This document shows, piece after piece, positions 7,097-33,000 of a stretch of DNA of 64,000 bases (position 1 is its first letter; the number at the start of each line of letters is the position of its first letter). Origin of the DNA: a methanogenic archaeon mixed culture ISO4-G1. GTDB taxonomy: Archaea; Thermoplasmatota; Thermoplasmata; Methanomassiliicoccales; Methanomethylophilaceae. Location: the NCBI GenBank assembly GCA_001563305.1, contig CP013703.1, forward strand, positions 1,227,773 through 1,291,772, read 5' to 3'. The translations under genes were made by a program, and so were the position numbers. The notes under the pieces were generated by a model. The model had not been told where the DNA came from and searched no databases. It saw only the letters and a list, made by a program, of their open reading frames with translations.

Positions 7097-7097
7097 G

Positions 7098-7943
7098 ATG
7101 GACAACATCGTAGAAGTCAAGGACCTGGTGGTGAAGTTCGGGGATTTCACCGCAGTGAACGGAATCACATTCGAAGTGAAGGAAGGGGAGATCTTCGGAT
7201 TCCTCGGACCGAACGGAGCAGGCAAGACCACCACGATCCGTACCATCACCACCATTCAGAAATTCGTATCTGGCTCTGTCAAAGTCGGAGGGTTCGACAT
7301 CAGGAAGGACTATGTCGAGGCCCGCAAGCTCATCGGCATGTCCCAGCAGAACATCTCCCTGGACAAGGACCTCACCGTACGTCAGAACCTGAAGCACCAC
7401 GCCATCATGCACAAGATCCCTTCCAAGCAGATCGACAGACTGGTCAAGGAGACCGCCGACATCCTGGAGCTGGGGGACTACATGGACAGGAAGGTCATGG
7501 AGCTCTCCGGCGGCTGGAAGAGGAAAGCGTCCATCATATGCGCCATAATCCACCACCCGAAGATCCTGCTGCTGGATGAGCCCACGGCGGGACTGGACAC
7601 ACGCTCGCGCCACATGCTGTGGGACCTCGTGGGGATGCTGAACTCCCGCGGGACGACCATATTCCTGACCACCCACTACATAGAGGAGGCCGAATCCCTG
7701 TGCGACAGGGTGGCCATAATCGACCACGGGGAACTCGTGGCGATAGGCACGGTCAGCGAACTCAAGGCCAAGGTCGGAAAGTTCGCCGTAGAGACCACCA
7801 ACGACGAAGGGAAGAGGAGGATGGAATACTTCGAATCCCTGGACGATGCCAAGGCGTTCTCCCAGACCCTCGGCGACAGACTGTTCAACATCAGAAGGGT
7901 CACCCTGGAAGATGCGTATCTAAAGCTCACGGGAGGTCTCTAA
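7098..7943 (+). CDS. ABC-2 type exporter, ATP-binding subunit (second cassette)
   Basis: This is a second DrrA-like ATPase, clearly paralogous to the one at 5466. It has Walker A GPNGAGKTTT, the same LSGGW signature, LLLDEPTAGLD and TTHYIEEAE. The C-terminal about 60 residues contain the small domain that in this family sits against the permease. It starts 2 bp after the first permease and ends in a TAATG junction with the second permease. The two cassettes could form two homomeric exporters or one heteromeric exporter; sequence alone does not tell. Confidence 0.9.
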   Translation: MDNIVEVKDLVVKFGDFTAVNGITFEVKEGEIFGFLGPNGAGKTTTIRTITTIQKFVSGSVKVGGFDIRKDYVEARKLIGMSQQNISLDKDLTVRQNLKHHAIMHKIPSKQIDRLVKETADILELGDYMDRKVMELSGGWKRKASIICAIIHHPKILLLDEPTAGLDTRSRHMLWDLVGMLNSRGTTIFLTTHYIEEAESLCDRVAIIDHGELVAIGTVSELKAKVGKFAVETTNDEGKRRMEYFESLDDAKAFSQTLGDRLFNIRRVTLEDAYLKLTGGL

Positions 7944-8689
7944 TGGGCGTCCTCGACGAATCGTACAGGGTCGCATGGGGCGACCTGGAGTACATGAAGG
8001 GCAACATGGTGGAGGTGCTCCTGTCATCGCTGGTCGGCCCGCTCCTGTACCTGCTGGCATTCGGTTTCGGTGTGGGAAGCAACATGGACGACCCCCAAGG
8101 CTACGTCACCTACATCGTACCGGGAATCATCGCCCTTACTACGCTGTCGGCCACGTTCAGCACCGTGTCCATGAAGATACTAGTACAGAGGCTGTTCTAC
8201 ATGAGCTTCGACGAACTGCTGCTCTGTCCCCTCCACATATCCTCGATCATACTGGGCAAGACCATACAAGGGATCGTGAGAGCGCTCATCAGCTGCACCA
8301 TCCTGCTGATCGTGGGATGGCTCCTGTCCCCCGCGGTAGCCATCAGCCCGTGGATCTTCATCCTGATCATAGTGTCCAGTCTGCTGTTCTCGCTGCTGGG
8401 ACTCCTGGCCGGGATGCTGACCAACAAGACGCAGAAGCTGACGCTGTTCTCCAGCATCGTCATCGTCCCGATGACGTTCCTCTGCGGTACCCTATTCGAT
8501 TCCAGTGCGCTGCCGGAGATCGCGGCGGACATCATCTACGCGCTGCCGCTGACCCATGTCAGCGCAATCACCAGAGGCATAATGCTCCCGGACTACTCGG
8601 TCGACCCGATCTCCATCGTGATCGTGGCGGCCTACATCATCGCACTCTATGCGATCTGCTATTACATGATCAAGAACAACAAATGCTGA
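7943..8689 (+). CDS. ABC-2 type exporter, permease subunit (second cassette)
   Basis: The ATG at 7943 shares its A with the TAA stop of the upstream ATPase, which fixes the start; a longer upstream frame is only overlap. The product of 248 residues resembles the first permease along its whole length, with matching stretches such as FYMSFDELLLCPL and IVPMTFLCGTLF. About six membrane segments are visible. The next gene begins at or just after this stop. It is the membrane partner of the second ATPase and probably arose by duplication of the whole cassette. Confidence 0.87.
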   Translation: MGVLDESYRVAWGDLEYMKGNMVEVLLSSLVGPLLYLLAFGFGVGSNMDDPQGYVTYIVPGIIALTTLSATFSTVSMKILVQRLFYMSFDELLLCPLHISSIILGKTIQGIVRALISCTILLIVGWLLSPAVAISPWIFILIIVSSLLFSLLGLLAGMLTNKTQKLTLFSSIVIVPMTFLCGTLFDSSALPEIAADIIYALPLTHVSAITRGIMLPDYSVDPISIVIVAAYIIALYAICYYMIKNNKC

Positions 8690-9686: not shown

Positions 9687-11174
9687 TCAGAAACTCTCGT
9701 GGAACAGACACTTGGTCTGGTGCTCGGGCTCCGAGGACGTGCTCATCCCCAGCTTCTTGTAGACCCCTTCATCGACCGCGGACAGTATGACGGACGAGTG
9801 GACGTCGCATCCCCTGAGCTTGGGGAGCATCGCGAACGCCTTCTCCGCGTTCTTGTCGGTCCTTGCGATTATGGACAGCGCGACGAGCATCTCGTCGAGG
9901 TGCATGCGAGGGTTCTTGTATCCCAGGTTGTCGACCTTGAGCCTCTGGACGGATTCGATGACCTCCTTGGAGATCAATGTGATGGAATCGTCTATACCGG
10001 CAAGCTCCTTGAGCATGTTCAGCAGGAGCGAGGATGATGCGGTGGTCAGTGGAGTGGCCTTTCCGGTCACGATCCTGCCGTCGTCCAATTCGGCGGCGAC
10101 GACCGGCCTCTCGGTCTCGGTCATGACGCGCCTGACCGTCTCAACGGTCTTCCTGTATTCAGGCGTGATTCCGGCGTTCTTCATGTAGATCTCCGACTTC
10201 AGGAGGGTCTCGGCGGACGCCCTGCCCTCCCTGCGGTCCCTCAGTGTGGAGAAGTAACGCCTGATGATCTCGTAGTTGGCGGCCTTCCTGACGATCTCGT
10301 CGTCAACAATACAGTTGCCCGCCATGTTGACCCCCATGTCCGTGGGGGACTTGTACGGGGATGCTCCCAGGACACCCTCGAGGATGGCGTTGACCACCGG
10401 GAAGATCTCGATGTCCCTGTTGTAGTTCACGGTCGTCTCGCCGTACGCCTCCAGGTGGTACGGGTCGATCATGTTAACATCCGCGAGGTCCACCGTGGCA
10501 GCCTCGTACGCGATGTTGACCGGGTGCTTGAGGGGAATGTTCCAGATGGGGAATGTTTCGAACTTGGCGTAACCTGCGGAGACTCCCCTCTTCTTCTCGT
10601 TGTAAAGTTGTGAGAGGCACACCGCCATCTTGCCGCTTCCGGGTCCGGGAGCGGTGACGACGACCAAAGGTTTGGTGGTGGGCACGAACTCGTCCTTTCC
10701 GAAACCGTCGTCCGATGCTATGAGGTCGACATTGGACGGATATCCGTCGATCAGATAGTGCCTGTAGACCTTGAGGCCGTTCGACTCGGCCTTCCTCTGG
10801 AACGCCTCGGCCTCCGCCTGCCCGTTGAAATGCGTGATGACCAGTCCACAGACCCCGATGCCCCTGTCCAGGAACATGTCCACGAGTCTGAAGACCTCCG
10901 AATCGTATCCGACGCTGAAATCCTTCCTGATCTTCTTCTTGACGATGTCCTCCGCGTTGATGACTATGATGGCCTCGGCATCCTGTCCGAACTCCATGAG
11001 CATCCTGATCTTACTGTCGGGCATGAAACCGGGAAGGACACGGGATGCGTGGTAGTCATCGAAAAGCTTGCCCCCGAACTCGAGATACAGTTTGCCGCCG
11101 AAATGCTTGATGCGTTCCCTGATTTTCTCGGACTGGGTCTTTAGGTACATGTCGTTGTCGAATCCGACCTTCAT
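9687..11174 (-). CDS. DUF1846 (UPF0371) family protein
   Basis: The 495-residue protein has the length and start (MKVGFDNDMYLKTQSEKIR) typical of the DUF1846 family found in bacteria and some archaea. A conserved phosphate-binding-like loop APGPGSGKMAVCLSQLY lies near residue 175-190, followed by NIPLKHPVN and an Asp-rich region. The family has known structures but no settled function that I know of; a nucleotide- or nucleoside-related role is a guess. No operon partner is close: the next minus-strand gene ends 85 bp upstream of its start. Confidence 0.85.
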   Translation of the reverse strand: MKVGFDNDMYLKTQSEKIRERIKHFGGKLYLEFGGKLFDDYHASRVLPGFMPDSKIRMLMEFGQDAEAIIVINAEDIVKKKIRKDFSVGYDSEVFRLVDMFLDRGIGVCGLVITHFNGQAEAEAFQRKAESNGLKVYRHYLIDGYPSNVDLIASDDGFGKDEFVPTTKPLVVVTAPGPGSGKMAVCLSQLYNEKKRGVSAGYAKFETFPIWNIPLKHPVNIAYEAATVDLADVNMIDPYHLEAYGETTVNYNRDIEIFPVVNAILEGVLGASPYKSPTDMGVNMAGNCIVDDEIVRKAANYEIIRRYFSTLRDRREGRASAETLLKSEIYMKNAGITPEYRKTVETVRRVMTETERPVVAAELDDGRIVTGKATPLTTASSSLLLNMLKELAGIDDSITLISKEVIESVQRLKVDNLGYKNPRMHLDEMLVALSIIARTDKNAEKAFAMLPKLRGCDVHSSVILSAVDEGVYKKLGMSTSSEPEHQTKCLFHESF

Positions 11175-11259
11175 GCAGGGAAGTAGCGCTGGAATCGTAT
11201 TAATTTGTGCTGACCTGGGGCCATCACGAGCGGTAACCGCCGATTACGGATGCGGGTTC

Positions 11260-12776
11260 TCAAGCCTCTATGAGCCTGTTACCCTCTATCATCGAATCCG
11301 TGACCGTCCCGATCTCCGCCAGATAGTCGATGAAGATTGATTCCACTGTGGCATCTATCTGCTTCGGATATCCGACAAGGTAACTGTTGCCGTCCCCTCC
11401 GGTCGCAATGAAGTCAATGGTCGCAATCTTGTAAGTGGCAATCTTGTCGATCTCCTCACCGTTGATCTTGATGGACTTGACCTTCTGGTTATCGGCTGCA
11501 CTGGGATCATAGGTCACGGTCATTCCCGAGTACTGCAGATATCCGCCCTTAGATGATCCTTTGAGGGCCAACGAGAACTCCATCTCATCCCACAAAGCAG
11601 AACCTGGCACATTCAGAATGCAGGTGAAATTCTGGAACGGCATTACATCGAATACGTCTCCTAAAGTGATGTCCCCGGCCTGTATTGATGAACGGATGCC
11701 ACCGCCGTTGATTATCGCCACAGTAGAATCGGTGGCCAGGCGCATTGCATCTGTGATGAGGTCTCCTAGGTTCGTCTCGTTGTTCCTGACGTTATTGCGC
11801 TCTCCGTCCAGGAGGATCGCTGTGTGGCCGACCACACCTGCCATCTTCCTGTCAACCTCGTCCTCAACCTGTTTCACGACATCTGAGGTGGTCTTGTACT
11901 CCAGAGCCGGTCCGCGGTACAGCTTGGCGCTGATCTTTCCCGCATCAACAGTGATCACTCCCACGTTCTTCAGGTTGCACCCTGTGCTGGCGATCGCGGT
12001 ATTGCTCTTGACGAGCTCTATGCTCCCGTCGCAGACCTTCCCGTCCTCCATCTCCGTGTGACTGTGGCTGTCGATACAGATGTCGATTCCGGAGACCTGT
12101 GCGCAGAGTTCATCGGATGTCGTGTAGCCCTCCTTGACCACTCCCATGTGACAAATGGCAACGATGCAGTCCACCTTCTCCTTCTTCAGTATGTTCGCCA
12201 TGCGCTTCGCCGCATCCACGGGATCGGTGACCTCGGAAGGGCCCAGGTTACCTGCCATGGTACTGACCGGGGTCTCTTCGCTGAGTAGCCCGAAGAATCC
12301 GATCTTGACTCCCTGCTTCTCTATAACCATGTATTCTGTGAACACGTTCTTACCCGTATCCGAATAAACGAGGTTGGAGCAGATGATCGGGTAGTTGAGC
12401 TGATCCACCCTCTCCAGCAGGGTATCGAAACTGAAGTCGAACTCGTGGTTCCCAGGAACGCCGATATCATAGCCGACTGTATTCATGATCTGGACTGAGC
12501 CCTCCCCCTAAGTCATGGTCCCGTAGGAGTTCCCTGAAGGAAATCTCCGGCATCGACCGTGAACACAACGTTATCCTCGGAGTACTGCTCCCTCAGTGCG
12601 GCGACCGTCGAGAAGTTCAACTGGTCGTCCCCCTCGTAGAAGCAATGGGTGTCGTTCGTATGGATTATCACGAACGATGCGTTCAAACCGCCCCCGAAGG
12701 GATTTACTATAACCACTACTGCGCAGAGCGCCAGAGCGACTGCCACGACTGCCACGACGACCTTCCTGGAGATCAT
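11260..12776 (-). pseudogene. Secreted 5'-nucleotidase / 2',3'-cyclic phosphodiesterase, broken by a frameshift and an in-frame TAG
   Basis: The N-terminal piece (12776 down to a TGA at 12513-12515) has a signal peptide or membrane anchor, then the metallophosphatase motif HTNDTH and GDFLQGTP. The rest (from about 12510 down to 11260) continues with GNHEFD, SHSHTE and the C-terminal nucleotidase domain with NGGGIRSSI. Homologues read straight through ...QGTP...KGE...MN.VGYD. Here the frame shifts by one base near 12516-12522, and four codons later a TAG (12508-12510) stands where relatives usually have Lys. Both lesions fall within about 15 bp of an otherwise intact gene. TAG could be read as pyrrolysine here, but the frameshift would still block expression unless it is a sequencing error or recoded. 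Confidence 0.75.
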
Positions 12777-12849
12777 AGTAACGATGTTGGTTCCATATGA
12801 TATTACAGTAACGAACAGACAGCATCTCGTTACTGGAACAAATACCGGA

Positions 12850-13686
12850 TTACCTCACATACTGAAGCACGATGTGCGGTGAACCCTCATCCATCTCAAT
12901 CTTGCATTTCACGTTGTACACGTCAGAGATTGTCCCCTCGGTGAATACTTCCAACGGAGTACCGATGCTGTGGATCTTCCCCGGGGTCTCCATCATGATG
13001 ACCTTATCGGCAAATTTGGCCGCCAGATTCAGGTCATGGCTGATCATTATGATGGTCATACCCGTCTTTGCTGAGAGCTTCTTCAGGAATGCCGTGACAT
13101 ATATCTGGTGCCTTATGTCGAGATTAGACGTGGGTTCATCGAGTATCAGGATCTTCGGTTCCTGAACAAGGCCTCTTGCTATCGACACTTTCTGATGCTG
13201 TCCCGCGGAGAGGTCATTGAACCTCTCCATCGCATAATCCTGCATCTCCAAGGCCTCTAGGGCCTTGTATGCCATGGCGACCTCCTCCGGTTTGGTCTTC
13301 CATGATTGATGGGCATACCTTCCTATCAGTACCGTATCCAGAACCGATAGCACGTTGAAATCGTTGGTCCTCACTGGCACATATCCTGCGATCTTCGCCA
13401 GCTCCTTCAGCGGATACGTCTTGACCTCTTTTCCATAGATCTTGACGATGCCGCTTCTCGGCTTCAACAGACCGTTCATGCACTTTATCAGAGTGGATTT
13501 TCCGACCCCGTTAGGTCCCACTATGCATACGAATTCGGGCTCGTCTATTGTGAATGAGACATCATGGAGAATCGTCTTATCAGTCTTGTAACCGAACGTG
13601 ACATTGGTCATTTCGATTATATGCTTCGAATTGAAATCTGGCGGAGTCTTATCGATATCATCCCTGAGGAATTCCGGCAATTGCAT
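12850..13686 (-). CDS. Iron/cobalamin-type ABC importer, ATP-binding protein (FecE/BtuD-like)
   Basis: This is the ATPase of a type II importer for an iron chelate, corrinoid or haem. The 278-residue protein has Walker A GPNGVGKSTL, the signature LSAGQHQKV, Walker B LILDEPTSNLD and the switch stretch MISHDLNLA, all typical of the FecE/FhuC/BtuD group. It follows the permease gene after one base, so the three importer genes (14879-16255, 13688-14872, 12850-13686) form an operon. The substrate is not shown by sequence; in a corrinoid-dependent methanogen both iron and B12 are plausible. Confidence 0.9.
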   Translation of the reverse strand: MQLPEFLRDDIDKTPPDFNSKHIIEMTNVTFGYKTDKTILHDVSFTIDEPEFVCIVGPNGVGKSTLIKCMNGLLKPRSGIVKIYGKEVKTYPLKELAKIAGYVPVRTNDFNVLSVLDTVLIGRYAHQSWKTKPEEVAMAYKALEALEMQDYAMERFNDLSAGQHQKVSIARGLVQEPKILILDEPTSNLDIRHQIYVTAFLKKLSAKTGMTIIMISHDLNLAAKFADKVIMMETPGKIHSIGTPLEVFTEGTISDVYNVKCKIEMDEGSPHIVLQYVR

Positions 13687-13687
13687 G

Positions 13688-14872
13688 TCACCAGGCCTCC
13701 TTCTTCTGCCTTACGATGAGGTACAGGAACAGAGGACCGCCGATGAATGCGGTGATCACGCCGACCTGAACGGTCGTCGGGTAGAATATGCTCTTTCCGA
13801 TGATGTCTGAGATTATGAGCAGGGCCGCACCGAAAGCGGCTGAGGCAGGTATCAGATATCTGTTGTCCGATCCCACAAAGATCCTTGCGATGTGGGGACA
13901 GACCAGACCGATGAATCCGATGAGACCGGTGAATGAAACCACACCAGCCGCAAGGAATGAGACGATGAGAAGAGAAATTATCCTCATCTGATCCGAATTG
14001 ACTCCCAGCGCCTTGGAACTCTCATCACCTGTCGCCACAACGTTTAACTTACGTGAGAGGAGGATGAGGGCGGTCGTTCCGATGACGACGAAGAAGAACA
14101 TGGCAGTCACCGCATCCCATCCGGCTATCCCCTTTCCTGCGATATCTATGGAACCGACGCTCCAGGCGTAAATCGCCGACAGGGATTCGGGATCCACGAA
14201 CAGTTTGATCAAGGTAGTGGCGGCGTTGAAGATGTACATGACTGCAATACCCGCCATGATCATGGTGGTCGGAGAGGCGGATTTGATCTTGGAAACAAGG
14301 ATGATCACAGCCATCGGGATCAGGGCGAATATGAACGCATTGGCCACGACGGCATAAGCTGTGGATGCCACGGACAACCCGAACCCCATCGCCAATGATG
14401 CTCCGAACGATGCTCCAGATGAGATGCCCGTGGTGTACGGATCCGCCAGGGGGTTCCTCAGTATGCTCTGCATGACGGCTCCGGCAGCCGCAAGACCTGC
14501 TCCCGCCAATAGACCGCAGCAGACTGACGGTCTCCTGATGAACCATACCGCATACTCGTCCTTGTTGGTAGCCATGTCCCCGGGATTTCCGGTCAGATGA
14601 TTCCATACGACCTCCATGGCATCGGTGAACGTGACATAATCCGCACCTATGGACAATGCGTAGATCGAACAGATGATCGCTAACAGGACGCTACCGATCA
14701 CGAATAGCCATTTGAAATGGATGTAGTTGTGGTAATCGGAGATCTTGTCTCTGTACTCTTCGATTTGTGTCTCCGAAGTCCATTTGTCAACGGCTGTCTC
14801 AATGGGATCGTAATCGTCCATGCTATCGGCTCTGTCTTCAAGGTAAGAGGTTTGGAAGAGGTTTATGTTCAT
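13688..14872 (-). CDS. FecCD-family ABC importer permease
   Basis: This is a permease of the BtuC/FecCD type, with about ten membrane helices and the conserved LAGAGLAAAGAVMQSILRNPLADP and GFIGLVCPHIARI segments that contact the ATPase. The protein has 394 residues, about 60 more than usual. The extra is a charged N-terminal extension (EDRADSMDDYDPIETAVDK) before the first helix near residue 55. It begins 6 bp past the binding-protein stop and is followed by the ATPase, the normal gene order for such systems. Confidence 0.92.
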   Translation of the reverse strand: MNINLFQTSYLEDRADSMDDYDPIETAVDKWTSETQIEEYRDKISDYHNYIHFKWLFVIGSVLLAIICSIYALSIGADYVTFTDAMEVVWNHLTGNPGDMATNKDEYAVWFIRRPSVCCGLLAGAGLAAAGAVMQSILRNPLADPYTTGISSGASFGASLAMGFGLSVASTAYAVVANAFIFALIPMAVIILVSKIKSASPTTMIMAGIAVMYIFNAATTLIKLFVDPESLSAIYAWSVGSIDIAGKGIAGWDAVTAMFFFVVIGTTALILLSRKLNVVATGDESSKALGVNSDQMRIISLLIVSFLAAGVVSFTGLIGFIGLVCPHIARIFVGSDNRYLIPASAAFGAALLIISDIIGKSIFYPTTVQVGVITAFIGGPLFLYLIVRQKKEAW

Positions 14873-14878
14873 TGATCT

Positions 14879-16255
14879 TCAGGCGTTTTCCTTCTGATAC
14901 TTCTGGACGAGTGTAGTGTAGTTGTCTCCGGTGTAGTAGATGAACGCATTAGCTGCGGTGTAGGTCTTGTCACCGAAGTACGTGTTCTCCTGACAGCAGA
15001 AGTTGTCGAACCAGTACTGGAGGTTCTTCTGTGCTTCTGCCTCAGTGAACAGGTTGGGGTAGAAGTACCAGGCACAGTAGTATGCCATCGCATAGGCTGC
15101 GTATCCTCCGCAGACGTAAGGCATAGCGCACATTCCGTTGTTCTTGTATGCTTCCGTTCCCTCGAAGAATGCCGCCACCTTGTCGAAGTACTCGTTGAAC
15201 TGCTGCTGACTCTCGCATGTGAACCAGTCGATAGAGGAGTAGTTCATAAAGATGATCTCCCACTTGTCCTGGGCATCCTCAGTGTACCACAGCTGGTCCT
15301 TGACGGTCTGTCCGTATGCGGTCTGAGCATCTCCGGAGTAGACGTTCGCGATCTGACTGATGAGGTTCACGGAACCCTCGTAAGCGGTACCGCAACATAC
15401 TGCGGTCCTGGATCCCTTGGGTGTGGTCATGGTGACCATGACATTCTTCTTCTCCACTCCATTGAGCCTCTCCTGGATGTCCTCGATGGCACCGTAGCAA
15501 TACTCGGCGTAGGCCTCTGCCCTAGCTTCCTTATTGAACAGGATTCCCATAGTGAGCATCGCGGACATGGCGTTGTTTCCGACGTGGGACAGAAGGATGA
15601 TCTCACAGTTGGGGTGAGTGTCCATGTAACCGGCCTTACACTTGTCATAGTTGTTCTGGTTGGGTGTGACCATGATGAGATCGATCTCCTCATCGGCGAA
15701 TGTTGTGAATGTGGTGTCATACCAGTTGTTGGTGGACACGCTCTCGACCTCTACGACGTGCGTAAGGTCGTACTGGTGCGTCTTAACCTGAGTGACATAG
15801 GCGTTCGCAACCTTGACATCATCCCAGATTCCAAGGATGGCCGCTGCCTCTGCCTGCTGCCAGTATGAGACGAATATGTTCCTGTCAACAAGGGGGTAGG
15901 TTATCTCCATAGGCCATCCCAGATATGTCTGGTACCAGACCTTTCCGCTCTTGTTGTCAATGATCATCTTGACCTGATCGATGTCTGCCTGTGTAATGAA
16001 ACCGTCATTGTTCGCATCTGCGAGAGGGTTCTTTGCACTGTCCCAAGTCGTCTTCTCATCGATGATGTCCTGTATGAATTTGACATCATCGTTGTTGATG
16101 TACGGATCGTTGTTAGCATTTCCGTAAACAAGATTTCCAGCATCTATGTTTACCTTGTGCTTAGAGTCCCCGTTGCCAAGAGCAACAAAGGCCACGGCGG
16201 CCCCTGCCACCACAAGTATGGCGACGACAGCGATCGTTAGCACTTTACTGTTCAT
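14879..16255 (-). CDS. Metal-chelate ABC importer binding protein with an N-terminal dockerin-like module
   Basis: I start at the ATG at 16255; an in-frame GTG at 16264 would add three residues. A hydrophobic signal or anchor (residues 5-26) is followed by two EF-hand-like calcium loops, GNANNDPYINNDD (about 45-57) and DANNDGFITQADI (about 80-92), each followed by a short helix, the layout of a type I dockerin. The remaining about 340 residues are a FecB/BtuF-like periplasmic-binding-protein fold with many aromatic residues. It should sit outside the membrane and hand the ligand to the FecCD permease. The dockerin suggests docking to a cohesin or an intramolecular role; no cohesin is seen in the window. 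Close to its start lies a palindrome over the promoter. Confidence 0.88.
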   Translation of the reverse strand: MNSKVLTIAVVAILVVAGAAVAFVALGNGDSKHKVNIDAGNLVYGNANNDPYINNDDVKFIQDIIDEKTTWDSAKNPLADANNDGFITQADIDQVKMIIDNKSGKVWYQTYLGWPMEITYPLVDRNIFVSYWQQAEAAAILGIWDDVKVANAYVTQVKTHQYDLTHVVEVESVSTNNWYDTTFTTFADEEIDLIMVTPNQNNYDKCKAGYMDTHPNCEIILLSHVGNNAMSAMLTMGILFNKEARAEAYAEYCYGAIEDIQERLNGVEKKNVMVTMTTPKGSRTAVCCGTAYEGSVNLISQIANVYSGDAQTAYGQTVKDQLWYTEDAQDKWEIIFMNYSSIDWFTCESQQQFNEYFDKVAAFFEGTEAYKNNGMCAMPYVCGGYAAYAMAYYCAWYFYPNLFTEAEAQKNLQYWFDNFCCQENTYFGDKTYTAANAFIYYTGDNYTTLVQKYQKENA

Positions 16256-16264
16256 TAGTATCAC

Positions 16265-16310
16265 TTGGATTATATATCCAAATGTGAAAACTTGTGTTTA
16301 TATATAATCC
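16265..16310. promoter_or_regulatory. Divergent promoter region with palindromic operator candidate
   Basis: The inverted repeat TTGGAT-TATAT-ATCCAA occupies 16265-16281, nine bases upstream of the binding-protein ATG. The same GGATTATATAT core recurs in the opposite orientation at 16300-16310. Both copies contain TATA-like sequence, so a bound repressor would block basal factor binding for the importer operon and perhaps for the divergent TerB gene at 16388. A metal-responsive regulator is an inference from the importer context. Confidence 0.45.
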
Positions 16311-16387: not shown

Positions 16388-18649
16388 ATGGCGTTCAACC
16401 CCTACGAACAGAGGAACGAATACAACGTTCAGGACCTTCTATCCCAGATCGAGGAGTACAAGGACAGGCACGGGGAGGAATGCGAATACGTCAGATGCGA
16501 GCACAGGAACGCCGACTATTCGGTCATGGACAGGCAGCAGAAGGCCTACTATCTCTACTGGAGGGACGAGCTCTCCCGCGGGACCTGCCTGAAATCAGAC
16601 AGAGGTTACGTGAAGCTCAGGCTCTGCGAGATCATCAACTCTGACATGGATCCCAAGGACGGTATGAGGGAGCTGAGGCTCCTGTTCGACAACAGCCGCA
16701 TGCACGGCATGCCGCAGTCCGATCTGGCCGCGACCATGTTCGATTACGCGGTGGTCCATGACCTGGACCTTCCGACGATGTGGATGGGGAAGGGCTCCGT
16801 CAGGTCATTCATGATCACATCGGAGATCATGTCGTTCCCGACCAGACGCATAGGGAAGGAGCTTGTGTGGTACCTCTCCGGAGGCCCCAAGATGCATGCC
16901 GACGGCGTCGACAGCCTGAGGCACATATCGCTGTTCAACGATTCACTGACGGCCATCGACAGGTTCCTGATGGAGAACACCGGGAAGGGCGTTGCCCAGA
17001 CATACTCGGAAGGTATGGTCACCGAGCTCTACAAGGTGTTCCTGTATCTGCCCTACGGCAAGGACAAGGACTATCAGATCACATACGAGAAGCTCCGCAC
17101 CGACGGTGTCTTCGGAGAGTTCATGCTAGGACTGTTCTCCTACACCAGGAAGGTCCTCTGCAAGGACATAGGGGAGAAGGGCCCCGCGACCCCCAGCTCT
17201 TTCAACAAGGAGTTCAGGGCGATCGTGGACAGGATCCACGAGGAGGGTCCAGGTGACTTCGAAAAGATCCCCAAGGCCTGGAGGGGAACGAACAGGCAGT
17301 CGATGTCCTCGAAGGAGAGGGCGCTGGTCGACATGGGCGCATCCCTGGAGGCCCAGTTCGGGACCGCTGAGAAGCCCAAGGCCATCCTGAACATCGACAA
17401 GGAAGCGCAGAAGCAGCATGTCAGTCCCCATCTGAAGACCGACATCGAGAGGAACTGGAACGTCGAGGTCAAGGAGAGGTGCGAGTACATACCTTCGGGA
17501 TTCACCAACCCGGATTACAGGTCCTTCAGCGAGCCCCAGAGGAAGTTCTACGTGTACTGGAGGGACCAGACCAGGAAGGGCAACTACGGCGAGACCGACA
17601 GGGGATACCTGTGGCTATACCTGTGCGAGCTCGTCAACATCAAGGCGGACCCGCAGGTCAACATGGACCAGCTGGTCGGACTCCGCAGGGCCTACGGGGG
17701 AGCGGACGAGGACAACCTGATCGGCAAGACATGCTTCGAATACTCGCTCGTCCACAAGCTGGCGTTCCCGGACCCCTCGATATACGAATCCAACATAACG
17801 GCGTGCCTGGTGATGGAGCAGTTCCTCAAGGGCATGGACACGCATCCTGACAAGACGCTGCTGCTGTTCCTGTCCGGGATCAACGATAAGACCATGTCCA
17901 GGGAGTTCGACCAGGACTGCGTAGGCATCACCTGCGCCATGCTGAGGGCCGTCGAGAAGGCCATGGAGGACCAGGGGACAACGATCGAGGAGTTCTGCGA
18001 TCCGGAGAAGGTACCGACCGTCGTCACCGTGTTCGAGGACCTGAAGTACTTCAAGGAGATCAGGAAGGCCAGGTTCACCTACAGGAACTACATCTACAAC
18101 GCCGCATTCGATGACTCCCTCAAGGAGATCGTGAAGAACGTGTTCTCCGCGGTCAGGATGAAGAGGACCGGAAAGGCAGTGAAGATCAACAAGTTCACCG
18201 CATTCGGGATGGAATGCAGGGAGATGCTCACAAAGGCCGTCTCCTCATGGTACGAGGGCAAGGAGATCGCGGAGATCAAGGAAAGAGCCAGCAACCTAAA
18301 GTTGGACCGCGAGGCCGTCACAGGTGCGGAGACCGCCCTCAAGGACGTGACCAGGATGATGGCCACGGAGGAGGTCCAGGAGGAAGTGGTGATGAGGCCC
18401 GTGGAACCCGTCAGGAAGATCTCCGATTCATGGCAGGGACTCGCCGAGGCCCTGGATGAGAAGCAGAAGGGCTACCTCAGAGCGGTATTGGAGGGCAACG
18501 GCCAGCAGTATCTGAGGGACATCGGTTCCATCCAATCCAGGATGGAGGATTCCATCAACGCCCTCGCCATGGACGCGGTGGGCGACAACATCCTCGAGGG
18601 CGGCGTGATCTTCGACGAATACACCGACAACGTAAGGGCCCTGCTCTGA
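16388..18649 (+). CDS. TerB_N / TerB_C domain protein with a duplicated TerB_N domain
   Basis: The 753-residue protein shows two copies of a TerB_N-like domain. Copy one starts near residue 35 and copy two near residue 361. Each has a Cys-Glu-Tyr start, a core of the form Q..(F/Y)Y.YWRD...G....DRGY and a following LCE(I/L)(I/V)N. The C-terminal about 80 residues (from about 676) resemble TerB_C, with INALAMDAVGDNILEGG and a terminal EYTDNVRALL. TerB_N/TerB_C proteins are known from tellurite-resistance-related stress systems and from gene clusters with ATPases and helicases proposed to act on DNA. The next two genes are exactly such partners. It is cytoplasmic, has no signal peptide, and starts at an ATG soon after a T-rich promoter-like stretch. 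Confidence 0.85.
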   Translation: MAFNPYEQRNEYNVQDLLSQIEEYKDRHGEECEYVRCEHRNADYSVMDRQQKAYYLYWRDELSRGTCLKSDRGYVKLRLCEIINSDMDPKDGMRELRLLFDNSRMHGMPQSDLAATMFDYAVVHDLDLPTMWMGKGSVRSFMITSEIMSFPTRRIGKELVWYLSGGPKMHADGVDSLRHISLFNDSLTAIDRFLMENTGKGVAQTYSEGMVTELYKVFLYLPYGKDKDYQITYEKLRTDGVFGEFMLGLFSYTRKVLCKDIGEKGPATPSSFNKEFRAIVDRIHEEGPGDFEKIPKAWRGTNRQSMSSKERALVDMGASLEAQFGTAEKPKAILNIDKEAQKQHVSPHLKTDIERNWNVEVKERCEYIPSGFTNPDYRSFSEPQRKFYVYWRDQTRKGNYGETDRGYLWLYLCELVNIKADPQVNMDQLVGLRRAYGGADEDNLIGKTCFEYSLVHKLAFPDPSIYESNITACLVMEQFLKGMDTHPDKTLLLFLSGINDKTMSREFDQDCVGITCAMLRAVEKAMEDQGTTIEEFCDPEKVPTVVTVFEDLKYFKEIRKARFTYRNYIYNAAFDDSLKEIVKNVFSAVRMKRTGKAVKINKFTAFGMECREMLTKAVSSWYEGKEIAEIKERASNLKLDREAVTGAETALKDVTRMMATEEVQEEVVMRPVEPVRKISDSWQGLAEALDEKQKGYLRAVLEGNGQQYLRDIGSIQSRMEDSINALAMDAVGDNILEGGVIFDEYTDNVRALL

Positions 18650-18713
18650 TCCGTCCCTACGATAATGGTATATGTCGAATCGACTATACCCTTTTTATTT
18701 AGGAGTCTGCACG

Positions 18714-19985
18714 ATGACAGAAACCGTTCCGAAAAGGACCCTCATGACCATGATGAACGCCCTCTCGTCGGGAGTCGTCCCCAGAAGGGGATTGGAGTAC
18801 ATCGCGGTCGGCAGGAAGAAAGAGACCGAGACATTCGTCAACGATCTCAACGACACGGCCGAAGGCGGCGGTGCGTTCAGGTTCATCTCCGGAAGGTTCG
18901 GTAACGGTAAGAGTTTCATGACGCAGATGATCCGCAACTATGCCATGGACAAGGGCTTCGTGGTCATGGATGCCGACCTCGCCATCAACAGGAGGCTCAC
19001 AGGCTCCAAGAAGGAAGGCCTGAACACCTACAAGGAGCTGGTAAAGAACATGGCCTACAAGGCCAGGCCGGACGGCGGTGCGATGGAACCCATCCTCCAG
19101 GGATGGATCATGGACACCAAGGACAAGCTCGGCTCTGACTCGAGGGAGGACATCGAGAAGTCCATGCGCCAGGACATGGCGGAACTCTCGAGTTTCCAGA
19201 ACTATCAGGACTTCATGATGGTCGTGATCTCCTACATGAACGACTTCCTCGACGGGAAGGACGACATCGCCGCCGTCAGGTGGTTCAAGGGAGAGCTGGA
19301 CCTCAAGAAGGAGTCCAGGAAGAGCCTCGGCACCAACGTGGTCATCGACGACGGCAACTGGTACGATATGATCAAGATCTGGTCCGGAATCGTCAAGAGG
19401 CTCGGTTTCAAGGGGCTCATCGTCTTCATCGACGAGGGGGTCATCCTCTACAAGCTCCAGAACAAGGTCTCCAGGGCCAACAACTACGAGCGTCTCCTGA
19501 CCATGTTCAACGACATCATGCAGGGAAAGACCCAGTACCTTTCGGTCTACGTCTGCGGTACGCCGGAGTTCATCGAGGACCCCAACAGGGGACTCTACAG
19601 CTACGAGGCGCTCAGGTCCAGACTCGTCGCGGGACGCTACGAGAGCGGCTACGACAACTACCTCGGGCCCATCATCAACCTCAAGCCCCTCACCAACGAG
19701 GAGGTCTTCGTCCTCCTGAAGACGATCAAGAACCTCCACGAGCAGAGGTACGAATACGATTCTGGGATCTCCGACGACATGCTGGAGACCTATCTCAAGA
19801 CTGTCATGGCCAACGTCGTCTCGTCGACCATGATCACACCCAGGGAGATCACCAGGGACCTCATCAGTCTCCTGGACACCCTTCACCAGAACAAGGACCT
19901 CGAGTTCATGGACCTGGTCGAGGGCAGGCTCGTCAACTCTGACGCGAACCCAGACGACGAGATCATCGAGGACCTCGAGGTATGA
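18714..19985 (+). CDS. brxD: BrxD-like P-loop ATPase (DUF2791)
   Basis: This is an AAA/STAND-like ATPase of 423 residues, similar to BrxD of type 2 BREX loci. Walker A is SGRFGNGKSF near residue 58, and the Walker B-type strand LIVFIDEGVILY lies near residue 234; KAR..GG and YVCGTPEF follow the family. I choose ATG 18714, preceded by AGGAG; an upstream in-frame ATG at 18672 lies in the T-rich promoter region. It overlaps the helicase gene by four bases (ATGA), so ATPase and helicase are translationally coupled. In BREX the protein is linked to DNA helicase activity, but its molecular role here is not established. Confidence 0.85.
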   Translation: MTETVPKRTLMTMMNALSSGVVPRRGLEYIAVGRKKETETFVNDLNDTAEGGGAFRFISGRFGNGKSFMTQMIRNYAMDKGFVVMDADLAINRRLTGSKKEGLNTYKELVKNMAYKARPDGGAMEPILQGWIMDTKDKLGSDSREDIEKSMRQDMAELSSFQNYQDFMMVVISYMNDFLDGKDDIAAVRWFKGELDLKKESRKSLGTNVVIDDGNWYDMIKIWSGIVKRLGFKGLIVFIDEGVILYKLQNKVSRANNYERLLTMFNDIMQGKTQYLSVYVCGTPEFIEDPNRGLYSYEALRSRLVAGRYESGYDNYLGPIINLKPLTNEEVFVLLKTIKNLHEQRYEYDSGISDDMLETYLKTVMANVVSSTMITPREITRDLISLLDTLHQNKDLEFMDLVEGRLVNSDANPDDEIIEDLEV

Positions 19986-22123
19986 GCGAGTACTTCGACA
20001 AGCTCCCCTGGTTCGTCAAAGAGTACATACACGCCTGCAGGTGGTCCGGCTTCAGGGAGATCCAGAACCAGACCTTCAAGGCATTCTATTCGACCGACGA
20101 CCACATCCTGATATCCGCCGGTACGTCCAGCGGTAAGACCGAGGCGGCGCTGTTCCCTGTGATCGGTTCCCTCTACAACAACCCCCCGGAGAGCGTCGGT
20201 GCCCTCTACATAGGTCCCCTGAAGGCCCTCATAGACGACCAGTTCCAGAGGATGGGGCCCATCCTGGGCGAATCAGAGCTCAGGATCACGGGATGGCACG
20301 GGGACATCAGCAGAAGCTCCAAGGCGAAGCTCCTGGAGAACCCCTCCGGGATCCTCCAGATAACCCCCGAGTCTCTGCAGAACATCATATCCTATTCCCC
20401 TGAGGAGGTGGAACGCTTGTTCCGCGACCTCAGGTTCGTGGTCATCGACGAGGTCCACGCCTTCATGGACTCGGACAGGGGACTGCAGTTGTTGTGCTGC
20501 CTCCAGAGATTGGAGGTACTGGCACATTGCAGTCCGAGGAGGATCGGCCTATCGGCCACGATATCCGACAGGGAGGATGCCGCGAAGTGGCTCTCCGCGG
20601 ATACCGGCAGGTACGTGAGCATCGTTTACGACGGTTCCACCAACGACCGCCGCATCCGCATCCATTACAACTACCTCCCGAAGAGCGACGAGGAGACGGA
20701 CAGCGTCGAGAGGAAGAAGGCGGTCACCAGGTACTATCTCGAACTGTTCAGGGAGACCCACGGGTACAACTGCATAGTCTTCACCAACAGCAGGCAGGAC
20801 GCGGAGGTCACCGCGAAGTCCCTGAGGATCGTGTCCGAGAAGAAGGGCTACCCCGACGAGGTCTCGATCCATCACGGAAGCATCTCGAAGGAGTACAGGA
20901 AGATCGCCGAGGAGAGGCTGAAGAACCCCTCGGTGAAGAACACCACCGTAGCCACCGTCACGCTGGAACTGGGGATAGACGTCGGAGACCTGGACAGGAT
21001 CGTCCAGATCGGCGCGCCGTTCACATGCTCCGGGCTCGTCCAGAGGATGGGCCGTTCCGGGAGGAGGGGCAACGGTCAGGAGCTCATCCTCATGTGCAAC
21101 GAGGACGAGGAGGAATGGTGGTCGACTCTGGACGGCGTATCCCTCGGACTCGTGAAGGCCATAGCCATGTCCGAACTGGTCCTGAAGGAAGGGTGGACCG
21201 AGCCCCCCGAGAGCAACAGCATGCCCTTCGGGCTGCTGTACCATCAGACGATGGAGTACCTCCGTTCGGGGATCGGCTGCAAGTTCTCGGTACTGGCATC
21301 GGATGTCCTGACCATGTACCCCTTCAGGGACATCCCCAAGGAGCAGTACAGGCTGATGATCAAGCATCTCGTGAACCTCGGCCATCTGCAGGTAATGTCC
21401 GACCAGACCATCCTCATCGGACCCAACGCCGAGAGGCTGGTGTTCGGAAGGGACTTCTGCTCGGTGTTCTCGACGAAAAAAGAGATCGTCGTGAAGTGCG
21501 ACGGGAAGATGATCGGTTCCATCCAGAACCTTCCGCAGGTCGAGGAGCTCATACAGCTCGCCGGAAGGGTCTGGACTGTGGTCAAGATCTCCAACGACAA
21601 GTCCTCGATAGAGGTCGAGGAGTGCGACGGCGAGGCATGCAACCCGTGGAGGTCCGGCACGCCCCCCACCCACACCAGGATCATGCAGAAGATTCTGGAG
21701 GTGCTCTCCTCCGACGAGGACTACCCGTACATAGACGATGCGGCCAGGCAGCGCCTCGCCGAGAGCAGGGAGACCGCCAGGTCCATAGGCATGACATCCA
21801 TGTTCTCCGAGAGGAAAGGGGGATTCAGGATGTACCCCTGGTTGGGGACTAGGCAGTTCGACACCCTCCGCAGGATCCTCCAGAAGGTCATCGGAACGGA
21901 TTCTATCAGATCCTTCCAGCCCTATTACATCGACATACGCACGAAGCTGTCCGAGGAGCAGATCCTGGACAGGGTCAGGGACTACGCAGAAGAGGAGGAC
22001 CCCATCAGGCTGGCGTACGACGAGGATCTCCTGAAGTACGGCAAGTACGACAGGTTCGTCCCCGAATCCCTGCTCATCAGGCAGTTCGCCGTGGACAGGC
22101 TGGATATGGACCTGGACCTCTGA
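19982..22123 (+). CDS. brxHI: BrxHI / Lhr-like superfamily 2 DEAD/DEAH-box helicase
   Basis: This 713-residue ATP-dependent nucleic-acid helicase has Walker A SAGTSSGKTEAAL near residue 45, the DEVH box VIDEVHAF near 155, motif III LSATISDRED, motif V TLELGIDVGDLD and motif VI QRMGRSGRRG near 355. The C-terminal 300 residues form the winged-helix and accessory part seen in Lhr-like helicases. The ATG overlaps the BrxD stop. With the TerB_N protein and BrxD-like ATPase it forms a tight module. No BREX methylase (BrxX/PglX), phosphatase (PglZ) or BrxC/PglY gene is near, so this is not a complete BREX system. Confidence 0.88.
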   Translation: MSEYFDKLPWFVKEYIHACRWSGFREIQNQTFKAFYSTDDHILISAGTSSGKTEAALFPVIGSLYNNPPESVGALYIGPLKALIDDQFQRMGPILGESELRITGWHGDISRSSKAKLLENPSGILQITPESLQNIISYSPEEVERLFRDLRFVVIDEVHAFMDSDRGLQLLCCLQRLEVLAHCSPRRIGLSATISDREDAAKWLSADTGRYVSIVYDGSTNDRRIRIHYNYLPKSDEETDSVERKKAVTRYYLELFRETHGYNCIVFTNSRQDAEVTAKSLRIVSEKKGYPDEVSIHHGSISKEYRKIAEERLKNPSVKNTTVATVTLELGIDVGDLDRIVQIGAPFTCSGLVQRMGRSGRRGNGQELILMCNEDEEEWWSTLDGVSLGLVKAIAMSELVLKEGWTEPPESNSMPFGLLYHQTMEYLRSGIGCKFSVLASDVLTMYPFRDIPKEQYRLMIKHLVNLGHLQVMSDQTILIGPNAERLVFGRDFCSVFSTKKEIVVKCDGKMIGSIQNLPQVEELIQLAGRVWTVVKISNDKSSIEVEECDGEACNPWRSGTPPTHTRIMQKILEVLSSDEDYPYIDDAARQRLAESRETARSIGMTSMFSERKGGFRMYPWLGTRQFDTLRRILQKVIGTDSIRSFQPYYIDIRTKLSEEQILDRVRDYAEEEDPIRLAYDEDLLKYGKYDRFVPESLLIRQFAVDRLDMDLDL

Positions 22124-22198
22124 TCCGTACGTTATCGGGCTTATGTCGCGCGCATGCGCCACCTTATTATTTTTAATGCGGAAGGTATCACGGTCAGC

Positions 22199-23323
22199 AT
22201 GCAGATTTCCAACAGGATAAACGACATACCGATGTCGGGTATCAGAAAGATGTTCGACCTCGCCGGTCCGGACTCCATAAACCTAGGTCTGGGCGAGCCC
22301 GACCTCGCACCTCCGAAGGAGGCGGTCGAGGGCATGAACAGGGCGGCCTCCGCGGGACGCAACAAGTACGGTCCCACCGCAGGTATCCCCGAACTGAGGA
22401 AGGCGGTCGCGGACAGGTTCAGGAAGTACGGCGACATCACGGGCGACAACATCATGATCACGCCCAGCGGATCGTCGGCACTGTTGGAGATCACCATGAG
22501 CGTTGTGAACCCGGGGGACGACGTCCTCGTACCGAGCCCCGGATTCGTCATCTACGGCCCCCACGCACAGCTGGCAGGCGGCACATATACGGAATACAAG
22601 CTCACCGACGGGGACTTCCAGCCGGACATCGACGACATCCAGTCCAAGATCACACCCAGGACGAAGATGCTGGTGGTGACCACCCCCTCGAACCCCACCG
22701 GCGGTGTCCTGAACGAGGAGAGCTACAAGGCGCTGTGCGACATAGCGGCGGACAAGGACATCACGATATTGTCCGATGAGGTCTACGAGTCCTTCATCTA
22801 CGAGGGCAGGCACATCTCCTTCATGAACCAGCTGGACAAGGCCATAGTGGCAAGCGGTTTCTCCAAGATGATGGCCGTCACCGGCTGGAGGATGGGATTC
22901 CTCTGCGCCAGCAAAGAGATGATGGAATATCTCATCAAGATGCAGTACCACGTATGTGCCAGCCCCAACATGCCGGCCATGTACGGCATCCTGGATGCCC
23001 TTCCGAACATCGATCCCTATCTGGAGAACGCCAGGGGGATCTACAGGAAGAGGAGGGACCTCATCTGCAAGAGGATCAACGAGATCCCCGGCATGAGCAT
23101 CGAGCCCCCCAAGGGAGCGTTCTACGCTTTCCCATCCTACGACCTGGACATGAAATCCCAGGAGCTGGCGGGGGAGCTTGTCAAGGCAGGGCTGATATGC
23201 ACGCCCGGATCCGCCTTCGGGAAATACGGGGAGGGCCACCTGAGGTTCTCCTATGCGGCGGACGAGAAGAAGATCAACGCGGGTATGGACATACTCGAAT
23301 CCACAATGAAGAAACTAAGGTGA
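22199..23323 (+). CDS. Class I/II PLP-dependent aminotransferase (aspartate aminotransferase family)
   Basis: The fold type I aminotransferase of 374 residues has INLGLGEPDLAPP near the N-terminus, the PLP-phosphate-binding PSGSSAL, NPTGG, SDEVYE and the Schiff-base Lys in SGFSKMMAVTGWRMG. The final Arg is in LRFSYA. Amino-donor specificity (Asp, aromatic or Ala) is not visible. I start at ATG 22199 because the domain begins at once; an upstream in-frame ATG at 22154 falls in the promoter-like ATTATTTTTAATG region. The next gene starts five bases after the stop. Confidence 0.88.
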   Translation: MQISNRINDIPMSGIRKMFDLAGPDSINLGLGEPDLAPPKEAVEGMNRAASAGRNKYGPTAGIPELRKAVADRFRKYGDITGDNIMITPSGSSALLEITMSVVNPGDDVLVPSPGFVIYGPHAQLAGGTYTEYKLTDGDFQPDIDDIQSKITPRTKMLVVTTPSNPTGGVLNEESYKALCDIAADKDITILSDEVYESFIYEGRHISFMNQLDKAIVASGFSKMMAVTGWRMGFLCASKEMMEYLIKMQYHVCASPNMPAMYGILDALPNIDPYLENARGIYRKRRDLICKRINEIPGMSIEPPKGAFYAFPSYDLDMKSQELAGELVKAGLICTPGSAFGKYGEGHLRFSYAADEKKINAGMDILESTMKKLR

Positions 23324-25911: not shown

Positions 25912-26778
25912 TCAGAAGAGTTTTGTCTTGGTGTTCGAGACGTTCACGATCTCGGCGGTTCCGCCCTCGAGGGTGAAGAATCCGAGTTTCCAGCCCATCT
26001 CGTCGTACATCTTGACGAGGTCGGGCATCATGTTGGCGACGATCGGCATGAACCTGGGATCGTCGACGAACACCGCCTTTCCGTCCCAGCGGAGGAAGTC
26101 CATTCCCACGGATGCGAGGATCTCGCACTTGGGGTTGGCCTGGAGCTGCTTGTAGACGTCCTTGAACGTACCGACGGCGAAGAAGATCTTGTCGTCGAGG
26201 TTGATCTTCAGTCCGAGGACCCTCATCCTGGGCTGGTCCCTGCAGGTCGTTGCAAGGGTGAACGTTCCGGCCTTGGTCAGGAATGCGTCAATCGCCTCCA
26301 TGGGCGTGAGCTCGATCGTGAGGGGCTCCACGAGCTGCCTGATCCAGTCCTTCTCCTTCTGGGAGACCTCTCCGTCGATGGCGCAGACCAGGAGACAGAG
26401 CATGACGATCTTGTCCTTGAGATCCTCAGAGACGAGGCCGATGATGTCGACCATCGTGTCCACTACGTCCTTGTACGAATCGGGGTTGTCGAGGCCCATC
26501 TCCTTGAAGAGAGCCACACCCTCGTCGTATGTCAGGTCCTTCTCCGCCATTCCGTCGAAGAGGGGCTTGAGGAGCTCGAACTCCTCCTTGGCCAGGACAC
26601 CGTCCGCAGCGACCGATGCCAGCAGGAACTGGAGGTATGCGGTGACACCGTTCTTACCGTCCGCCGTGAGCACCGACAGCTGGTCGATGATATCCGCCGA
26701 CAGTTCGTTCATCATCTGTGCTGATTTCGCAGGGTCCATGGACTCGAGCTTCTTGCAAAGTGCGTCGAAATCACTCAT
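25912..26778 (-). CDS. TerB-like domain fused to a pyridoxamine-phosphate-oxidase-like flavin barrel
   Basis: The 288-residue protein has two parts. The N-terminal half (about 50-165) is TerB-like, helical, with the paired motifs VAADGVLAKEEFELL and VCAIDGEVSQKEKDWI, where Asp-Gly and acidic residues resemble the TerB metal-binding signature. The C-terminal half (about 170-285) matches the FMN-binding split barrel family (FTLATTCRDQPRMRVLG, IFFAVGTFKDVYKQLQANP, WDGKAVFVDD). Such barrels bind flavin, haem or deazaflavin. The fusion suggests a redox or stress-sensing role, but I know of no characterised example. It has no signal peptide, and no adjacent gene is in the same orientation within an operon distance. 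Confidence 0.75.
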   Translation of the reverse strand: MSDFDALCKKLESMDPAKSAQMMNELSADIIDQLSVLTADGKNGVTAYLQFLLASVAADGVLAKEEFELLKPLFDGMAEKDLTYDEGVALFKEMGLDNPDSYKDVVDTMVDIIGLVSEDLKDKIVMLCLLVCAIDGEVSQKEKDWIRQLVEPLTIELTPMEAIDAFLTKAGTFTLATTCRDQPRMRVLGLKINLDDKIFFAVGTFKDVYKQLQANPKCEILASVGMDFLRWDGKAVFVDDPRFMPIVANMMPDLVKMYDEMGWKLGFFTLEGGTAEIVNVSNTKTKLF

Positions 26779-30008: not shown

Positions 30009-33000
30009 ATGATCAAGGACAGTAATGGCGGGATGCCCTTCAGTCTGATAGCGGTCACCATACTGCTCATGGCATCTATCGCCGGAGCGGTGATGGCCGA
30101 GCACTCCAGAGCGATAGACGACATCGAGGAGTCGGAAGATGCTACACGCAAGGTGGAAATCTCCGCAGATGGGATCGAATCCTACATAGAGCGCGAGCTT
30201 GGCATAATCATATTGGACATCTCTAAGGACGGAACGCTGGGTTCCCTTGACAACAGATCGGCAGAATTCCGGAAAAGAGCAGAGGCGTGGATAGATGAGC
30301 GCTTTCCGATGAGGAACGGCGATCTCAGGGCTGAATTGGTGGGCAGGACATTCGACCTCTCCGTGGAGAGCATGGGCGTACAGGATGGTTCCGTCATTTC
30401 AGGATGCCTCCCCACTTATCTAAGAGGGACAGGAGTCGTAACGGTAAACGTCTCCTCCCCCTTCGGTTCATCCCTGAGGTCCTTCGACATATCGACAGAT
30501 GGAAGTTGCGCACTCCCGTTGGCGGTGGAAAAGGGATCACTGTTCGAAAGGATGGCGGGCACCGGCGGAATCTCGATCCCCGAGATGATGAAATACGAGC
30601 TGGAATCCTTGGCACAGTATAGGGTTCTGAACGGATACGGTTCCCGTTCCGCCCATGGTTCGATGGGCACCCATTCGATCATCACATCGGATGATGTCAT
30701 CGCCTCCTACAACGATGCTCTGGATCTCATTTCAGCAGTGTGCTTCCGCGATATCAATCCAGACTGCGGACCGACATCCGTGTGGAATCTAATGGACGAC
30801 AAGGCCGTCTTGGACACATCAGCTTTCTGTGGCCAGGTCCTGGTGTCAATCATAGATGACCTCGTCCTGAAATGGTATGATTATCTCAGATACAATCCGC
30901 TAGGACGCGACCCCAGCGGAATGTTCAACGGGTTGACCGTCATCGGGCAGTGCCTGATCGGATTCTTCACGGAGACGGATCCGTTCGATGCAAGCGGTTA
31001 TGTAATAGAGTTCGTAGATAACGACAGTCTCCTCTATCCTGGATCTGGCACATCATCGATTGATGTCGGAAGATACACCATTGTGGTGGAGAATCCAACT
31101 CTGTATCTTCCCAATCAGGAATGGATCAGACAGTTCGGTTTACACTACACCTGCGGGAGCGACCACCTCATGGATTGCATGTCATCGATCCTCAACGGTG
31201 CTGCAGAGAAAGCACTGTCAGATCATCTGATGGATGTCACCATACACCGCGAACAAGGTTCATTCGTGGACTGCATGATCGACGGTTATCGCAATTCATT
31301 GGATTATCTAGAACCTATATTCGAGTTCTCCATCAGGAACGAGACTTCCGATGTCACTATATCAGATCCTTTCCTGGCAGCCTTGGCGGACTGCATATAT
31401 TCCCATGCGGAAGACATGGTTCTCGAGGATGAGTTACGGGCACGGTTCATCGATTCCCTATCCACGGTGTTACCTGACTTCGAAACAGATTCTGAAGAAA
31501 TCTCCAGATCCATCGATTCAGCCGTCCATGCCTACCGTGCGAAGGTCTACATGGATCTGAAATCGTTCAGTACCCTGGGCGATAAAGGCGGGGGCGGTCC
31601 CGATCCCATGACTCATTATCTCATGTGTGCACTGGCGTCCGGACTGGACGGATTCAACACGAGGAAGATAGTGATGGACCGCGGCAATGTGATGCTGGAT
31701 GAGGTCCTGTCGAATTTAGAGAATGCTGCAGGCCTGAATCTGCCCTTTCCGGAGGAGGGTTTTTTCCTCTTGGATGATGGACATGGGAACACGATTAGCG
31801 AGTCCCTTGATGTCACTTATGAAAATGATCCGATAGCTGGATCTCCCGTCGTGTTAACTGACAAATGTGTGCACATGACCGGTTTCCTCGAGAACTCTAC
31901 TGCAGGATACAGTACCACGTTCCAGATCAGACTGGTTGATCTGATAGATTACACCGTCAGGAGCATCAATCCCGTCTACGAGGCGTTCGGAAGCCCTTTC
32001 ACATCGACATACACCGGATCGATATCCAACGAGATTGTACTGGAGATCAGTGTATCAAGCGCATGGGCGCTCATAGGTGTAGAGTACAGTGCCAGCAATA
32101 AGTTGCTGGAGGATACCTTCGAGGTTCTGTATCCGTTTCTCGAGCCAATTCTGGAACCTCTGAAGGATCTCTTGGATGCCATCAAATCAGCTGCGGAACT
32201 ACTCAACGGTTACCTGATGGAGATTGTCGGATATGCGGCAGACGCTGTATCCCGTCTATACGATATCCTGATGGGCCCCGCTACCATCATCTCCCAATGG
32301 ATGCAGTATCACATGGAGGAGTTGTTCGGTTCGGAGATATTGGATCTCTATTATTCACTCGACCTCGCCAAACAGCAGATCGGCTTCCAGTACATGGGAT
32401 ACGATTTCAACATCAGATTCGATCTGGCTTCATTGAGCGGATCGACAAAGACCCTTTTCGTGGCATCCTTATCCGGACCACTGTCTGACCTCTGGTTCGA
32501 AGTGAGTCTCACAGCGAAGGTCAGGGGCGAGATGAACCCACATAACGTCATATTGACCGGAAAAGGAACAGTTGAATCGGATGACTGGAAGGTCGGTATT
32601 TCGATGGATCCGATGATGCGCAGCAGCAAGCATCTGCTCTCATTGACCGCAAAGATCGATGATGTGGAGATATCGGCCGTATTGCCCGATTTGGATGACT
32701 ATCACGAGTTGGGCCTGACCCTCAGCAACATTCCAGGGATCGGGGATGCACTGGACAACATCCCGATTCCGTTCCTTGGTGTGAACATTGGGTTGGATGC
32801 GGGCATCAGCATGAAGTATTCGGCACCGGTAGCCACAGGCCTCCTGATAAACGAATATGAATCCAATCCGCCTGGTAACGATTCCGGGAAGGAATGGGTG
32901 GAATTGCTGAACAACACCCCTTCCTCCATCGATTTGGATGGCTACTGCCTTTATGCCTCCTCGGACCGTTCCAAGAAGAAGATCGCCTTGTCTGGCACTA

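Follow-up and report, generated by a model that had tools for sequence, protein, structure and literature searches.

A probable Shango anti-phage locus in a methanogenic archaeon whose genus carries the system's ATPase in every genome examined

We describe three adjacent genes in the genome of a methanogenic archaeon (mixed culture ISO4-G1; 1.59 Mb, single contig) that very probably form a Shango anti-phage locus (sngABC), both by identity and by antiviral role. They lie in a window of 64,000 nucleotides, by which we mean the whole stretch of DNA that was analyzed. A sequence-only reading of this DNA had taken them for an ATPase/helicase module that stands on its own outside BREX, perhaps antiviral, and this holds up. 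It had overlooked that the module has already been described as Shango (Johnson et al. 2023, PMC10250203). Because the proteins match Shango models and the genome contains no match to PglZ (PF08665) and no Cas1, the trio is an archaeal representative of an already described system; it is not what is left of a BREX locus, nor is it a new system. This settles how an operon of hypothetical appearance is to be annotated and shows that a whole genus of gut methanogens retains an antiviral system, although defense systems are usually patchy.

The trio occupies three intact, tightly spaced open reading frames on the plus strand (16388-18649, 18672-19985, and 19982-22123), as the earlier reading had stated. 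The first gene, sngA (16388-18649), encodes a mostly helical protein of 753 aa. For the second, sngB, the frame opens at 18672, but the gene most likely extends from 18714 to 19985 (423 aa), since the second methionine is the start in most nearby archaeal SngB proteins when aligned with relatives and an AGGAG motif lies 8 bases upstream of 18714. The start of sngC (19982-22123; 713 aa) overlaps the sngB stop as ATGA, the coupling that had been noted before. Between sngA and a divergent importer gene, an AT-rich TATATATA (16297-16310, plus strand), read by eye, is a possible archaeal promoter. Pfam agrees with the protein families first named from the letters: SngA has TerB_N (3e-16, in two stretches) and a sub-threshold TerB_C, SngB is a P-loop ATPase of the BrxC/BrxD family (BrxC_BrxD, 2e-128), and SngC is an Lhr-like SF2 helicase with DEAD and Helicase_C domains. 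SngB carries the Walker A motif GRFGNGKS and the Walker B motif LIVFIDE, whose GxGKS and DE are invariant across six aligned sequences, and the SF2 motifs of SngC are intact (GTSSGKT, DEVH, QRMGRSGRRG). The Pfam domain search finds no nuclease or methylase domain in SngA, SngB, or SngC.

Among PADLOC models, the first protein matches SngA, a TerB-type protein (2.2e-36), with the match confined to aa 359 onward and TerB_N above its cut-off. The second matches SngB at 1.3e-143 (477 bits) versus 2e-46 (157 bits) for BrxD, and the third matches SngC at 4.2e-201 (668 bits) versus 2e-119 (398 bits) for BrxHI. The BrxD and BrxHI membership proposed earlier thus captures a real relationship but not the identity of the proteins, since the SngB and SngC models match far better; with the NCBIfam BrxD equivalog NF033438, the window SngB scores 154 bits, below the cut-off of 350. 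SngC, BrxHI, DruE, and DpdJ have been grouped as one possible SF2 helicase clade in a study of Hachiman (PMC12278908), which accounts for the first impression of BREX. SngC also shares its SF2 core and motif layout with the ligase-associated DEXH helicase/Lhr family, but its 216 bits against the ligase-associated model fall far under the curated cut-off of 850, and no ligase gene was noticed in the locus. With Shango, the window trio has in common the three families, the gene order, the close spacing, and the lack of a PglZ or methylase partner. The genes are adjacent in the order A-B-C, as in published and plasmid Shango loci, and this order is also found in Bacillota, Actinomycetota, Spirochaetota, Chloroflexota, Pseudomonadota, and haloarchaea, so that the arrangement is not due to chance. 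Homologous trios are not always part of complete BREX loci: those that we examined sit outside them.

Shango was reportedly described by Millman et al. in 2022. In Pseudomonas aeruginosa PA14, it consists of a TerB-like protein, an ATPase, and a helicase, and in PAO1 the PA14 system reduces the plating of many phages 10- to 100-fold; the same authors cite an independent report of anti-phage activity in E. coli (PMC10250203). A 2026 review lists the mechanism of Shango as unknown (PMC12926258). Our literature search found no experimental test of an archaeal Shango and no match for papers on TerB-N/TerB-C helicases. A published locus on plasmid 4 of Sulfitobacter faviae (SngA 1-2544, SngB 2522-3829, SngC 3835-6012; PMC10221251) was retrieved independently by a tblastn search of plasmids with the window SngB. 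At the published coordinates, the plasmid record names a TerB N-terminal protein, an ATP-binding protein, and a DEAD/DEAH helicase, in the same order as in the window, and the PADLOC Shango models matched by the window proteins also recognize the plasmid's SngA and SngB. On the Sulfitobacter plasmid (locus L219), a gene of the PD-(D/E)XK nuclease family (6015-8257) begins 3 bases past sngC, and a nuclease may be coupled to Shango at some loci.

The window locus differs from Shango elsewhere in the architecture of SngA, which is TerB_N-TerB_N-TerB_C without the TerB core. Two tandem TerB_N-like halves, with repeat cores at about aa 12-115 and 347-444, are followed by a TerB_C-like part at aa 628-739; the N-terminal 345 residues align with the remainder over 232 columns at 26% identity (E=1e-21), and an HMM of the repeat core scores 7e-59 and 1e-46 on the protein. 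No TerB core domain is found in it by Pfam. This lack, compared with the TerB core present in proteobacterial SngA, and the partial extent of the PADLOC SngA match count against the Shango assignment. Within the main archaeal clade, SngA could be detected at 32 loci, and at 25 of these the repeat-core HMM finds two copies in one protein. A single copy is present in a four-genome group (L080-L083) and in a pair from another genus, g12, where a separate gene of 311-312 aa lies upstream of the single-copy sngA; one further locus is fragmentary. Each bacterial SngA has at most one repeat copy or TerB_N by the same HMM. Six genomes have two consecutive sngA genes (L073, L075, L077, L086, L099, and L101). 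By Pfam, SngA of alphaproteobacterial and haloarchaeal plasmid Shango loci is TerB_N-TerB-TerB_C, and that of Paenibacillus, Lachnospiraceae, and Olegusella (Bacillota/Actinomycetota) is TerB_N-TerB_C, with the TerB core undetected. The doubled TerB_N and the TerB-less SngA proteins suggest that the TerB core, from which SngA takes its name, is dispensable for persistence of the system and that the TerB_N and TerB_C parts are the working core worth study. That these features, namely an internally duplicated SngA (with sngA again duplicated as a gene in some genomes), a missing TerB core, and a system never lost in the genus, mark a lineage-specific Shango variant, perhaps with a second cellular duty, seems to us unlikely. 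In a close relative (G080, locus L068), sngA and sngB are separated by an open reading frame of 487 aa (10968-12431) for which PADLOC gives no match.

How the three proteins might act together can be sketched only tentatively, and we hold the following scheme with rather less than even confidence. Shango would be a nuclease-free block on viral DNA, driven by its ATPase and helicase. SngA, the fastest-changing component and the one without a recognized enzyme fold, would provide recognition or a scaffold; SngB, as an ATPase of the BrxC/BrxD type, would join it and spend ATP on loading SngC onto invading DNA or licensing it there; and SngC, as an SF2 helicase, would move along or remodel that DNA, so that viral replication or packaging is blocked. 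Since the trio contains neither a nuclease nor a methylase, any destruction of DNA would be left to host nucleases, and self would be told from non-self by DNA structure, replication state, or a viral protein rather than by a dedicated mark. A hidden nuclease in SngA was considered and rejected, as no Pfam nuclease domain, no sequence relative in the PDB (E up to 1), and no fold match at E<=0.001 among PDB and viral models was found; the fold search used the whole chain and is weak because the AlphaFold model, although locally confident (pLDDT 86.7), has a pTM of 0.51.

The alternative that survives best is Shango acting through abortive infection, in which SngA would be an effector that SngB and SngC release or activate once they sense viral replication, and the host cell would be halted. 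The lack of a nuclease in the trio speaks for such a role, as does the position of SngA as the sole part without an assigned activity, and Hachiman offers a precedent for a helicase acting as sensor (PMC12278908). However, neither a domain nor a fold match of a toxin, nuclease, or pore-forming protein was found in SngA, and we regard this route as doubtful, if worth keeping in mind. The identity of the locus as Shango is the same under the direct block and under abortive infection.

A different possibility is that the trio is a fixed genome-maintenance module, domesticated from an old Shango, in which the ATPase and helicase serve stalled forks or damaged DNA. Constancy speaks for it. SngB is present in all 31 genomes of the window's own genus (g1), which is unexpected for a defense system, and SngC is present in 30, missing only from an assembly that is 76% complete; among good assemblies, SngC is found in 17 of 17. 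The nine genomes of the closest clade (the window genome and eight relatives) hold the trio at one location, beside housekeeping genes. In the remaining clades of the genus, members again share locations particular to their clade, and many of these still lie close to the same HSP90-like and reductase-like genes. The trio in the window has ordinary metabolic genes as neighbors, and SngC distantly matches ligase-associated and Lhr-type repair helicases. The genus-wide presence of SngB and the single location of the trio in the closest clade are as compatible with a fixed cellular role as with defense.

Other observations weigh against a maintenance role, which we consider improbable. Within the order, SngB occurs in 42 of 147 genomes and in just 3 of 30 genera (31 genomes of g1, 8 of g7, and 3 of g12; none in the other 27), and an even sample of the phylum gives strong matches in 17 of 390 genomes, all within this family. 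Close named relatives of the window genome are rumen and gut assemblies of Methanomassiliicoccales/Methanomethylophilaceae such as UBA71, UBA113, and SIG3, in line with a gut- or rumen-type archaeon of the family Methanomethylophilaceae. The trio also diverges faster than a core reductase gene, and SngA outpaces SngB, SngC, and the core gene: within the closest clade, identity to the window is 63-78% for SngA, 70-82% for SngC, 81-87% for SngB, and 89-93% for the core gene, and between clades it is about 18-37%, 47-58%, 65-72%, and 79-87%, respectively.

The SngB gene tree, built by a quick method with SH-aLRT support only, shows exchange between archaeal genera. Its main archaeal clade mixes g1, g7, and g12, with six g7 rows inside g1 and one g12 row paired with a g1 row; the core gene, by contrast, keeps the genera apart, at 79-93% identity to g1 members and 63-76% to g7. 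In three archaea (G034, G040, and G084, at loci L087, L091, and L061), a Shango of bacterial type, which the tree nests among gut bacteria, takes the place of the family's own type; we read this as a sign of transfer from gut bacteria. In a tblastn search with the window SngB, relatives were found on 679 plasmids, 539 of them predicted to be conjugative. Carriage by phages was rejected, as 50,697 phage records held no SngB relative. Defense genes adjoin the trio in sister genomes, an association by example rather than by statistic: Cas3e and Cas7e of a type I-E CRISPR-Cas system lie directly downstream at L084, with the same gene families at L099; a type IV methyl-directed restriction enzyme adjoins it at L080, with the same gene family at L083; and PDC-S01 does so at L071. 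Proximity to known defense genes, one of the points raised by the earlier reading, is therefore seen in relatives. The trio is not merely vertical housekeeping, though the system is remarkably constant within the genus: SngB is genus-wide and its location is fixed within clades, but movement between genera and the defense neighbors in sister species separate it from a housekeeping cluster without a link to defense.

In five of the genus's genomes (G079, G083, G090, G091, and G092), a full Shango is accompanied by a second SngB-like gene that is about 41% identical (L092 8480-11831; L093-L096). It is preceded by a gene of 365-450 aa with an SngA-like C-terminus, and no SngC-like helicase was detected near it in these five; the pair is a possible two-gene Shango-like unit.

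Also as suggested before, the BREX core is absent, and this extends beyond the locus, which has neither PglX nor BrxC: PglZ is missing genome-wide, and the single strong match to an N6-adenine methylase (N6_Mtase) in the whole genome lies about 330 kb from the trio. That the trio is a degenerate or minimal type 2 BREX (BrxD plus BrxHI) after loss of PglZ, PglX, and BrxC, a reading encouraged by the BrxC_BrxD domain of SngB and the real similarity to BrxD and BrxHI, is scarcely credible and was rejected on the model scores, with SngB and SngC 320 and 270 bits above BrxD and BrxHI, and on the absence of PglZ, and it also has against it the SngA-first trio present in many phyla.

Shango in the window is flanked on the left by a DUF1846 gene (9687-11174, minus strand) and on the right by an aminotransferase-like gene (22154-23323, plus strand), the latter named by reading and conserved across the nine members of the closest clade; both are given as context only. 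Between the DUF1846 gene and sngA, the window genome alone, compared with its eight closest relatives, has genes for an ABC-type metal importer and a 5'-nucleotidase-like gene (11260-16264). Because the DUF1846 gene abuts sngA in most of those relatives, the block appears to have been inserted recently at the Shango locus. About 4 kb downstream of the trio, a minus-strand gene (25912-26778) encodes a protein of 288 aa with a PNPOx_N domain and a sub-threshold TerB-like stretch, whose relation to Shango is unlikely. Farther on, a protein of 1291 aa (30009-33884) with a lamin-tail domain (PF00932, 2.5e-12) is probably a large surface or secreted protein.
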